Source: Prochlorococcus sp. scB245a_519A13
GTDB lineage: Bacteria; Cyanobacteriota; Cyanobacteriia; PCC-6307; Cyanobiaceae
DNA: 64,000 nucleotides
Assembly: GCA_000634415.1 (NCBI GenBank)
Contig: JFNH01000118.1
Location: 62,001-126,000 of the forward strand
Direction of reading: 5' to 3'
Every line of letters begins with the position of its first letter. Positions within the stretch are counted from its first letter, which is position 1. Below, in pieces: positions 47,608 through 55,622 of the stretch. Both the position numbers and the translations under genes were made by a program. Under the pieces are notes generated by a model. The model saw nothing but the letters and a program-made list of their open reading frames with translations. It was not told where the DNA came from and made no database searches.

Positions 47608-48582
47608 ATGAGAATTAAGAAAATATTAATTATAAGTTTAGGAAGTATAGGTAAAAGGCACATAAGAGTAATCAAAAAATTAAGGCCTGAAATTAAAATT
47701 AATTTATTGAGAAGAAAAATACCTTTGAATAAATCTAAAGAAGAGGAATTAATTTATAAAACATTTACCTGCCTAAAAGAAGCTATTAAAGATGGAATAG
47801 ATGCAGCAATTATTGCAAGCCCTGCAAAATTTCATATTGAACAATCTCTTGAAATTCTCAAAGAAAATATTCCTATATTTATTGAAAAGCCCATTTCTGA
47901 CAATCTAGAGAGCTGCTTTGAATTAAAAAAATTAGCAACAAAAAAAAATATTCCAATAACTGTTGGTTATGTACTAAGGCATTCAAAAATTCTCAATGAA
48001 TTTAACAAATTGATAAAAGAAAACCACATTGGTAAAAATATATACGCGGAAATAAAATGCGGCTCTTACTTACCTTTATGGAGAAATAATATAGATTATC
48101 GAGAAAGTGTCTCATCCAAATCTTCACTAGGTGGTGGAGTATTATTAGAATTAAGCCATGAAATTAACTATGCGAATTGGCTTTTTGGTCCTTTAAAAAA
48201 CTTAAAATCAATTACAATAAATACAAATCTACTAGAAATAAATGTTGAAGATATTGCAAAAATAATAGCTACAAATAATAAGAATTTTTTAGTCCAATTA
48301 CATTTGGACTTTTGTAGTAATAGCGAAGAAAGATTTTGCAAATTATATGGAACTAGAGGTTTTATTAATTTAGATTTTAAAGATAAATTAATAACTTTAA
48401 AGAAATATGATTCAGAAAAAATTAAATCAATTAAAGTTAACGAAAGTTATGATGATATGTATGTTAATCAAATGCGACATTTCTTAACTTGCATTGAAAA
48501 GAAAATCAATCCTATTGTGACAATAGATGATGCAATTGAGACAATGAAATTGATTAGTGAATGTAATAGTTCTAAATTATAA
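47608..48582 (+). CDS. Gfo/Idh/MocA family oxidoreductase
   Basis: ISLGSIGKRHIRVIKKL; AAIIASPAKFHIEQSLEIL; IFIEKPIS. Confidence 0.93.
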   Translation: MRIKKILIISLGSIGKRHIRVIKKLRPEIKINLLRRKIPLNKSKEEELIYKTFTCLKEAIKDGIDAAIIASPAKFHIEQSLEILKENIPIFIEKPISDNLESCFELKKLATKKNIPITVGYVLRHSKILNEFNKLIKENHIGKNIYAEIKCGSYLPLWRNNIDYRESVSSKSSLGGGVLLELSHEINYANWLFGPLKNLKSITINTNLLEINVEDIAKIIATNNKNFLVQLHLDFCSNSEERFCKLYGTRGFINLDFKDKLITLKKYDSEKIKSIKVNESYDDMYVNQMRHFLTCIEKKINPIVTIDDAIETMKLISECNSSKL

Positions 48583-48601
48583 AAAATATTAATAAAAATA
48601 A

Positions 48602-49291
48602 TTGAAAACTTTCTGTTTTATTTTTGCAAGAGGAGGGTCCAAAGGATTACCTAAAAAAAATATTAAATCCTTATTTAATAAGCCTTTGATTAAATATTCT
48701 ATTGATATCGCAAAAGAAATTAATGAAATAGATAAGTGTTTTGTATCAACTGATTGTGAAGAGATAGCAAAAGTATCTAAATCTAATGGTGCGGAAATAA
48801 TTCATAGACCAAAAGAGATTTCTCATGATAAAAGCCCTGAGTGGCTTGCTTGGAAACATGCAATAAATTGGACATATGATAATTACGGTAAATTTACAAA
48901 GTTTATAAGTTTACCTGCTACAGCACCTCTTAGATCAAAGGATGATGTTATTAAATGTTTAAATGCTTTTCAATCTAGAGAAGATGTAATAATTACTATG
49001 ACAGAAGCCTCAAGAAACCCATGGTTTAATATGGTAATAAAAAATGAAAAAGAAGGTATTGATTTGATTTTAAAAAGCAAAAAAAAAATATCAAGAAGAC
49101 AAGATGCTCCAGAAGTATTTGATCTTACTACTGTTGCATATGTTCTTAATCCCGAATTTATTTTAAAAAATAATTCAATATGGGATGGAAATGTAAAAGG
49201 TATTCTTATACCGAAAGAAAGAGCTTTAGATATTGATAATGAATTTGATTTTAAAATCGCTGAAATGATTTTGGGAATGAATAAAAAATGA
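48602..49291 (+). CDS. Acylneuraminate cytidylyltransferase family protein (NeuA-like)
   Basis: FIFARGGSKGLPKKNIKSLFNKPLIKYSI; ATAPLRSKDDV; TTG start. Confidence 0.92.
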   Translation: MKTFCFIFARGGSKGLPKKNIKSLFNKPLIKYSIDIAKEINEIDKCFVSTDCEEIAKVSKSNGAEIIHRPKEISHDKSPEWLAWKHAINWTYDNYGKFTKFISLPATAPLRSKDDVIKCLNAFQSREDVIITMTEASRNPWFNMVIKNEKEGIDLILKSKKKISRRQDAPEVFDLTTVAYVLNPEFILKNNSIWDGNVKGILIPKERALDIDNEFDFKIAEMILGMNKK

Positions 49292-50043
49292 AGGAAGAAG
49301 TTATTTTAATCACTGGTGCCTGCGGTCTTATTGGAGAATCTATAGTTTTTGGTTTAAAAAATGAAAACTACAAATTAGTTTGTATTGATAATAATAAGAA
49401 GAATATGGAGAAATTAAAGTTAAAATATAACGATAAAAATAGTTTATTTTTAACTTCTAATATACTAATAAAAGAATCATTAGATTTATGTATTGAAAAA
49501 GCACATAATAAGTTTGGCCGAATAGATTGTGCCATTCATGCTGCCTATCCTAAGTCAATAGGTTGGGGTTCAAAATTTGAAGATTTAAAGGAAAATTTCT
49601 TGATGGAAGATCTTCAAAACCAATTAGGCTTGGCAATAATATTCTCACAAAAAATAATTAAATATTTTTTGCATCAAGGATATGGCAATCTTATTCATTT
49701 CTCTTCTATTCAAGGAATAGCTGCGCCAAAATTTGATCACTATGAAAAGACATCAATGAATAGTCCTATTGAATATTCAGCAATCAAAGCTGGGATAATT
49801 TCAGTTACAAAATATTTATCAAAATATTATAAAAATAAAAATCTGAGAATAAACTGCATTAGTCCTGGAGGAATTTATAATAATCAACCCAAATCATTTT
49901 TAAATAACTACAAAAAATCATGCAATTCAAAAGGCATGTTAAATTCTGAAGATATTCTTGGCACAATTTTATTTCTTATTTCAAGAAATTCGCTTTATAT
50001 AAATGGACAAAATATAATAGTTGATGATGGATGGAGTCTTTAA
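49288..50043 (+). CDS. SDR family oxidoreductase
   Basis: LITGACGLIGESIVFGL; YSAIKAGIISVTKYLSKYY; NCISPGGI. Confidence 0.92.
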   Translation: MKEEVILITGACGLIGESIVFGLKNENYKLVCIDNNKKNMEKLKLKYNDKNSLFLTSNILIKESLDLCIEKAHNKFGRIDCAIHAAYPKSIGWGSKFEDLKENFLMEDLQNQLGLAIIFSQKIIKYFLHQGYGNLIHFSSIQGIAAPKFDHYEKTSMNSPIEYSAIKAGIISVTKYLSKYYKNKNLRINCISPGGIYNNQPKSFLNNYKKSCNSKGMLNSEDILGTILFLISRNSLYINGQNIIVDDGWSL

Positions 50044-54219: not shown

Positions 54220-54231
54220 TCAAAATTTATT

Positions 54232-54975
54232 ATGCAAACATGTATCATAATTCCCGCAAGATATGATTCCAAAAGATTTCCTGGCAAACCATTAGTTAAG
54301 TTATTAGGAAAATCAATGATTATTTGGGTAGCCGAATTAGCCAATAAAGTTTTACCAAAAGAAGATATATATATTGCGACAGACAGTAAACTTATTGAGC
54401 AAGAAATAATTCAACACGAATTCAACTGTATTAGAACTGGTAACGCCCTTACAGGCACAGATAGAGTTGCTTTGGCATCAAAAGAATTAAATTATGATTT
54501 CTTTATAAATATTCAAGGGGACGAACCATTATTAGATCCCCAAGATATTGAAAAATGCATAAAATTAAAATATAAATTCCCACAATATATAATTAATGGC
54601 TTTAATATTATCGGTAATAATGAAAATCCAAATTCCAGAAATATTCCTAAATTAGTTACCAATGATAATAATGAATTGATTTATATCTCGCGTGCTTTAA
54701 TACCATCTCAAAAAGATGTATCAAATAATATAAAAATTGAATACAAAAAGCAAGTTTGCATATATGGATTCTCCAAAAAAGAATTAAACTTATTCTACGA
54801 CTATGGAAGAAAATCAGATTTAGAAAAATTCGAAGATATTGAGATTTTAAGATTTTTTGAACTTCGTACTAAAATTAAAATGTTTAAATGTAGAAAAGGC
54901 TCAATCGCAGTTGATATACCTTCAGATGTTTTAAAAGTAGAAAAACTATTAAAAAATCAACAAATTAATAAATGA
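54232..54975 (+). CDS. kdsB: CMP-Kdo synthetase (KdsB-like)
   Basis: IIPARYDSKRFPGKPLVKLLGKSMI; NIQGDEPLL. Confidence 0.93.
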   Translation: MQTCIIIPARYDSKRFPGKPLVKLLGKSMIIWVAELANKVLPKEDIYIATDSKLIEQEIIQHEFNCIRTGNALTGTDRVALASKELNYDFFINIQGDEPLLDPQDIEKCIKLKYKFPQYIINGFNIIGNNENPNSRNIPKLVTNDNNELIYISRALIPSQKDVSNNIKIEYKKQVCIYGFSKKELNLFYDYGRKSDLEKFEDIEILRFFELRTKIKMFKCRKGSIAVDIPSDVLKVEKLLKNQQINK

Positions 54976-55622
54976 AAATATACACTCATCTTTTTTTCGA
55001 TTGTGATGGTGTAATTTTAAATTCCAACACTATAAAAACCAAAACTTTTTATGATATTGCTCTTAAGTATGGGCATAAAAAAGCAGAAGAATTAGTAAGA
55101 TATCACATTGCTAATGGAGGAGTATCAAGATACAAAAAGTTTAAATTTTTCTTAGAAAATATTATCAAAAATTATAATGAGGATGAATTTAATAATTTAA
55201 TAAAAGAATATGGAAGTTTGTCTAAAAAGAAACTTCTAAAAGCAGAAATAACAAGAGGTATATTTCAGATAAAAAAGTTTTTTCCTAATTCATTAAACGC
55301 AATAATTTCAGGATCTGATGAAAAAGAATTGAAATGGATATTTGAGAAAAAAAAATTATCTAATTATTTTAATTATGGAATTTATGGCAGCCCAAAAAGT
55401 AAATTTGATATCTTCGATCAAATTTATTCAACCTTCAGAGGTGGAGAAAAAACTTTATTTTTTGGTGATAGTGAATATGATTATTTGGTATCTAAAAAAT
55501 ATAAAATGGATTTCATCTTTATTTCAGAATGGACTGAATTGAATCAATGGGAAAATTTTACAGCGGCAAATAATATAAAAACTTATAAAAATATATTAGA
55601 ATTTTTTAATTCTTATAATTAA
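54972..55622 (+). CDS. HAD family hydrolase
   Basis: LFFDCDGVILNSN; ISGSDEKEL; LFFGDSEYDYL. Confidence 0.92.
   Translation: MKIYTHLFFDCDGVILNSNTIKTKTFYDIALKYGHKKAEELVRYHIANGGVSRYKKFKFFLENIIKNYNEDEFNNLIKEYGSLSKKKLLKAEITRGIFQIKKFFPNSLNAIISGSDEKELKWIFEKKKLSNYFNYGIYGSPKSKFDIFDQIYSTFRGGEKTLFFGDSEYDYLVSKKYKMDFIFISEWTELNQWENFTAANNIKTYKNILEFFNSYN

Follow-up and report, generated by a model that had tools for sequence, protein, structure and literature searches.

Ulosonic acid pathways and the nine-gene run

To our knowledge, the ulosonic acids of bacterial surfaces, namely 3-deoxy-D-manno-octulosonic acid (Kdo) and the sialic, pseudaminic and legionaminic acids, all obtain their carbon backbone from a phosphoenolpyruvate (PEP)-dependent synthase, and members of the KdsB and NeuA families activate such 2-ulosonic acids at the anomeric carbon to cytidine monophosphate (CMP) sugars. 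The Kdo pathway (KdsD-KdsA-KdsC-KdsB) draws on a phosphorylated aldose, a three-carbon unit, a HAD phosphatase and a KdsB-family CMP-transferase. The same elements would be used by a three-gene cassette that closes a run of nine genes at 47608-55622 of a 64,000-nucleotide stretch of Prochlorococcus sp. scB245a_519A13 (contig JFNH01000118.1, forward-strand positions 62,001 to 126,000; hereafter the window), but the cassette has an HMGL-like aldolase fusion and no KdsA, its HAD protein is of subfamily IA, its KdsB falls in a separate clade and its CMP-transferase may, in other genomes, be NeuA-like.

The nine open reading frames (ORFs) are intact, co-directional and near-contiguous, separated in order by 19 nt, a 4-nt overlap, 31 nt, a 7-nt overlap, a 4-nt overlap, 13 nt, 12 nt and a 4-nt overlap. 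This tight packing on one strand had been described in an earlier note on the sequence, and Pfam and NCBIfam agree with every family name given there. The note regarded the run as a single module, but it consists of two, A (47608-52583, six genes) and B (52597-55622, three genes), each of which occurs separately. The arrangement is not a matter of chance, because another Prochlorococcus locus (L027) repeats the order Gfo/Idh-NeuA-SDR-NeuB-NeuD-isomerase-aldolase up to its contig end and dozens of unrelated genomes contain the last three genes.

The explanation that we favour, with modest confidence in it as a whole, is that modules A and B are independent CMP-ulosonic-acid sets that adjoin one another within a surface-glycan island of Prochlorococcus. 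Module A would make a NeuB-type nonulosonic acid activated by its NeuA-like enzyme, with the TIM-barrel isomerase acting in the NeuB branch and not with the aldolase, while module B would be a PEP-synthase-independent CMP-ulosonic-acid pathway composed of a pyruvate aldolase, a phosphatase and a CMP-transferase. The interpretation in the earlier note is thus supported in part: its two acidic sugars, one a NeuB/NeuA/NeuD-type nonulosonic acid and the other made through the aldolase fusion, HAD and KdsB, agree with the present results, whereas its single module and its role for the isomerase do not.

The aldolase cassette across genomes

Module B comprises the following genes:
52597-54219, + strand: aldolase fusion, a DRE-TIM/HMGL-like metalloaldolase domain (about residues 1-320) followed by a predicted MptE-like C-terminal domain (about residues 345-540); PF00682; PDB 3dxi, E 8e-44
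54232-54975, + strand: KdsB-like CMP-ulosonate cytidylyltransferase of the cassette clade; PRK05450.1-5, 207 bits (cut-off 193); TIGR00466, 109.9 bits (below the cut-off of 155.2)
54972-55622, + strand: HAD-IA phosphatase; PF13419/PF00702; DxD (FFDCDG), S (ISGSD) and GDSxxD motifs present

The conserved cassette recurs in cyanobacteria, Pseudomonadota, Bacillota and Campylobacterota. To score its gene content, a profile built on four fusions was searched in GTDB genomes, and the best 80 of 134 relatives together with two further loci (L005 and L023) gave a set of 82; the profile was made from the aldolase sequence alone, so that co-occurrence was not built in, yet the four seed proteins came from cassettes. 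A CMP-transferase is a near-obligatory partner, being encoded on the same strand within 2.5 kb of the fusion at 80 of the 82 loci (within 150 bp at 71), and the two exceptions end at contig ends. HAD genes lie within 5 kb at 72 loci, NeuB is nearby at only seven, and most of the loci lack the six genes of module A. The nearest CMP-transferase is KdsB-like in 48 loci and NeuA-like in 32, with at least 11 changes between the two types forced by well-supported branches of the aldolase tree (a quick tree with SH-aLRT support only). As a control, four annotated plasmid relatives matching the aldolase domain only (Mesorhizobium, Paraburkholderia, Priestia and Legionella) list no CMP-transferase nearby, whereas both full-length Leisingera plasmid copies viewed do have one, the gene tables being incomplete in each case. 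No cassette was found in phages at useful coverage or in Escherichia coli DNA; among plasmids, those of Leisingera carry it.

Within the genus Prochlorococcus, 13 of 267 genomes carry the fusion, at 28-59% identity, and this scattered occurrence suggests horizontal transfer. KdsB-like genes are present in 57 of the 267 and stand directly beside the fusion in 10 of the 13 fusion genomes; the other three have a NeuA-like partner (G260), a lone aldolase domain (G156) or a contig end at this point (G278, the genome of L027). In Prochlorococcus genome G016 (locus L022), the contiguous cassette lies alongside a full legionaminic (Leg)-type set (NeuA, SDR, LegB-like, LegC-like, NeuD, NeuB and NeuC) on the opposite strand, and in the Prochlorococcus locus L088 it lies beside a similar set on the same strand.

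GT29 sialyltransferase-family proteins use CMP-sugars, and in Halomonas urumqiensis one such gene (L060, 9316-9990) overlaps the start of the aldolase fusion. In Marinobacter (L028, L029, L031, L032, L049 and L054), the cassette is accompanied by an O-antigen-ligase-like gene and Kdo-kinase-like genes, which suggests that its product enters the lipopolysaccharide (LPS) core. At one locus (L138, 7692-9333) the fusion is present as two overlapping ORFs, either a frameshift or a real split.

Domains and conserved residues of the fusion

The nearest PDB entries to the N-terminal domain are 3dxi ('putative aldolase') and then the 4-hydroxy-2-oxovalerate aldolases. The RD motif and HxH metal site of DRE-TIM metallolyases are both present, as R17/D18 and H205/H207; R17 and D18 are kept in 81 of the 82 fusions, and H205, H207 and N241 in all 82, so that the metal site is intact. 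The fusion shares the DRE-TIM fold family, the RDG motif and the two metal-binding histidines with DmpG/BphI and 3dxi, but differs from them in its C-terminal domain, in having no dehydrogenase partner, in having no His after RDG and in scoring far under the 4-hydroxy-2-oxovalerate aldolase models (TIGR03217, 81.6 against 286; PRK08195, 96.5 against 229).

The C-terminal domain has no Pfam match. Its predicted structure (pLDDT 94) is matched by Foldseek to SteA (9hmz) and Methanocaldococcus jannaschii HPPK (8sd5), and a profile of 77 C-domain sequences independently matches 8sd5, weakly (E 0.008); on account of these two matches, the modelled fold is termed MptE-like. The likeness to the MptE-type 6-hydroxymethylpterin diphosphokinases and the SteA C-terminal fold covers the predicted fold and the N-terminal loop, with a TM-score of about 0.5 and 10-16% identity, and gives no indication of kinase activity.

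The KdsB clade and the distribution of KdsA

Cassette KdsBs score 121-148 bits on TIGR00466 (cut-off 155.2), against 178-328 for the canonical copies found alongside them in these genomes; many Gram-negative carriers keep both. In a tree whose cassette rows were picked by similarity to the window protein, cassette KdsB and 10 canonical KdsB sequences lie on opposite sides of a branch with support 99/90, present in all 200 bootstrap trees. By both its TIGR00466 score and its separate clade, the window protein is not a canonical KdsB orthologue; its nearest PDB entries are nevertheless all KdsB, and by enzyme class it is likely still a CMP-ulosonate synthase. The cassette HAD matches no KdsC model, only HAD-IA/PGMB-like ones.

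The absence of KdsA and of a NeuC-type epimerase, recorded for the window in the earlier note, extends to the whole of the host genome, in which there are no matches to TIGR01362, TIGR03568 or PF02350. This assembly (1.15 Mb in 222 contigs) is 67% complete, and all absences in it are to be read accordingly. TIGR01362 is likewise without a match in G016 and G012, and G041 (99% complete) has only a match at the level of DAHP synthase. In one sample of 37 genomes of the genus, only four have a true KdsA. Among 16 carrier genomes checked more widely, 11 have KdsA, including the proteobacterial and Sulfuricurvum carriers tested and Bacillus PS06, while none was found in Metabacillus, Rossellomorea, a Bacillales metagenome-assembled genome (MAG) or Anabaena. 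Cyanobacteria have been reported to possess only lpxA/C/D/B, and so to lack the late lipid A genes, and to have no Kdo (PMC3087551, PMC4515613); the second of these papers also lists a small number of earlier records of Kdo from freshwater species. The general statement that KdsB activates Kdo, made in the earlier note, is therefore not transferable to this enzyme, which lies apart from canonical KdsB in a group reported to have no Kdo. Despite those reports, genes read by eye as KdsA-like and Kdo-8-P-phosphatase-like adjoin nonulosonic-acid genes in two Prochlorococcus loci (L121, 16438-17840; L122, 309-1715).

A candidate pathway and its alternatives

Because the KdsB and NeuA families activate 2-ulosonic acids, the cassette must make or receive such an acid. 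Given a pyruvate-type aldolase, a HAD phosphatase and no PEP synthase in most cassettes, the simplest path leads from pyruvate and an aldose phosphate through ulosonate phosphate and ulosonate to CMP-ulosonate. The metal-dependent aldolase domain would condense pyruvate with a phosphorylated aldose drawn from central metabolism, giving a 2-keto-3-deoxy (ulosonic) acid phosphate and so filling the role held by KdsA or NeuB in known pathways; the HAD enzyme would then take off the phosphate, the KdsB-like enzyme would convert the ulosonate to its CMP form and glycosyltransferases would use the resulting CMP-sugar. We infer the pyruvate donor, the phosphorylated acceptor, the order of the steps, the product and the chemistry; support for the donor comes from the closest characterised activity, that of the pyruvate-using 4-hydroxy-2-oxovalerate aldolases. 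No aldolase-type CMP-ulosonate pathway was found in the literature, of which coverage was partial. The product of the cassette is probably an acidic surface sugar, formed by a route that has not been described. The chances appear evenly balanced that this route is a widespread one, in which a pyruvate metalloaldolase/MptE-like fusion replaces KdsA or NeuB and is partnered by CMP-transferases of either the KdsB-like or the NeuA-like type, used interchangeably.

Several observations weigh against this pathway. The sources searched contained no assay of any cassette enzyme, the host genome is 67% complete, as described above, and the HAD protein could act elsewhere. Known 4-hydroxy-2-oxovalerate aldolases have a His after the RDG motif, where the fusion has Gly-Tyr-Tyr. 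At eight loci (L094, 11617-12375; L037, L040, L054, L075, L078, L093 and L096), an HpcH/HpaI aldolase lies between the fusion and a NeuA-like CMP-transferase, and in this subtype the fusion may carry out another step; this is the chief difficulty for the proposed mechanism. Finally, most proteobacterial carriers have KdsA and hence a source of Kdo.

This last point bears on an alternative in which the cassette yields ordinary CMP-Kdo by way of a KdsA gene located elsewhere, while the fusion modifies or recycles Kdo. In its favour, the KdsB-like enzyme exceeds one KdsB model cut-off (PRK05450.1-5) and KdsA occurs in the 11 of 16 carriers and the 4 of 37 sampled genomes of the genus noted above. 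It is nevertheless unlikely: KdsA is lacking from the host genome, G016, G012, G041, Anabaena and three of the four Bacillales carriers, the cassette KdsB is separate from the canonical enzyme that many genomes keep beside it, and Kdo, like the late lipid A genes, is reportedly missing from cyanobacteria (PMC3087551, PMC4515613). A somewhat less improbable, though still doubtful, alternative is that the fusion is not what forms the bond of the ulosonic acid and instead works on a side chain or in the making or trimming of a precursor, the keto acid coming from NeuB, an HpcH-type aldolase or uptake. Both the second pyruvate-type aldolase (HpcH/HpaI) inside the cassette at the eight loci and the fused MptE-like domain, suggestive of an added function, are consistent with this, but in most cassettes no second synthase or aldolase, NeuB included, was recognised in the vicinity.

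That all nine genes make one sugar, with the two CMP-transferases serving two intermediates or derivatives, is very improbable. The shared gene order in L027 fits such a scheme as far as the aldolase, where the contig ends, but the cassette is without the other six genes in most loci and the isomerase/NeuB set is also found where there is no aldolase, and because the modules occur separately this alternative is largely refuted. If instead the aldolase pathway proposed for module B is correct, the cassette represents a second chemistry for ulosonic acids in marine bacteria, Bacillales and picocyanobacteria, and there are probably unrecognised acidic sugars on abundant ocean microbes, where surface glycans are of importance to phage and grazers. 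The cassette CMP-transferase is labelled a Kdo enzyme by automatic annotation, which may mislead predictions of LPS structure.

The NeuB gene set and its isomerase

Module A comprises six genes:
47608-48582, + strand: Gfo/Idh/MocA oxidoreductase, PtmF-like by gene order; PF01408/PF02894
48602-49291, + strand: NeuA/PseF-like CMP-ulosonate cytidylyltransferase; PF02348 (67 bits); TIGR03584, 126.6 bits (below the cut-off of 205.7)
49288-50043, + strand: short-chain dehydrogenase/reductase (SDR), PtmA-like; PRK09186, 317.8 bits (cut-off 255); PtmA model, 247 bits (below the cut-off of 350)
50075-51100, + strand: NeuB-family PEP-dependent ulosonate synthase with SAF domain; PF03102, 277 bits; TIGR03569, 382 bits (just below 399.65); PDB 8h2c, 1vli and 1xuu
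51094-51720, + strand: NeuD/PglD-type acyltransferase; TIGR03570, 185.6 bits (above the cut-off of 160.8)
51717-52583, + strand: xylose-isomerase-like TIM-barrel isomerase/epimerase; PF01261; model pLDDT 92.7; NeuB-linked

The NeuB synthase (PF03102) and a CMP-transferase (PF02348) are thus encoded on the same strand with one gene between them, as in a NeuB-type pathway. Module A shares NeuB, the NeuA-like and NeuD-like proteins, the PtmA-like SDR, the Gfo/Idh protein and the order ptmF-legF-ptmA with legionaminic ptm/leg clusters, this order having been described in the Plesiomonas Leg cluster (PMC4481668). It differs in having a TIM-barrel isomerase and no LegB, LegC, PtmE or NeuC/LegG alongside, a domain scan of the module having found no LegB dehydratase, LegC aminotransferase or LegG/NeuC epimerase. 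A gene for a CBS-domain aminotransferase lies 10 kb away.

The predicted structure of the isomerase is closest to the D-tagatose 3-epimerase-like 3wqo, and its metal-site residues E158, D199, H202, H229 and E263 are invariant. All six genomes of the genus that carry the isomerase encode it close to a NeuB, and one of them also has a NeuB-TIM fusion; in two other cyanobacteria the isomerase lies close to NeuA or NeuB genes, and in Azospirillum it adjoins a NeuA. At the aldolase-fusion loci, by comparison, it was found at 1 of 82, and the NeuB/isomerase set also occurs without the aldolase. On the evidence of this gene neighbourhood, the isomerase is rejected as supplier of the aldolase's substrate, the role proposed in the earlier note.

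Among the NeuB matches listed, an Epimerase_2 gene lies within 4.5 kb of 47 of the 144 copies that have no isomerase neighbour and of none of the 6 that do (p = 0.18). When the 16 further listed NeuB proteins of at least 600 aa, in only some of which the TIM domain was found, are counted with the 6, the figures become 47 of 128 and 0 of 22 (p = 0.00025). The isomerase may stand in for NeuC, a role with which these counts, though statistically weak, are compatible. Several NeuB proteins in Prochlorococcus (L120, 13641-15947; L187, L188, L191, L193 and L194) are 630-770 aa long and have at their C-terminus a domain resembling the TIM-barrel isomerase.

Neighbouring genes in the island

The same-strand run exceeds the nine genes, with the following gene stopping 8 nt upstream and a GT4 gene beginning 24 nt downstream:
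45800-47599, + strand: ABC exporter, flippase-type; PF00005/PF00664

This exporter is probably in one transcription unit with the nine-gene run, and it also lies ahead of the module in L027 and of some other cassettes. The surface-sugar island extends in both directions, with the exporter upstream and GT4 glycosyltransferases downstream, where the G+C content falls to 23%. Elsewhere in the window, a methyltransferase, an NAD-dependent epimerase and a transketolase encoded as two genes (42760-43554 and 43551-44468) form another unusual sugar module at 40828-44468, and on the minus strand at 36247-38862 a CBS-domain DegT aminotransferase adjoins a GDP-mannose 4,6-dehydratase, possibly a pair for a GDP-4-amino sugar.

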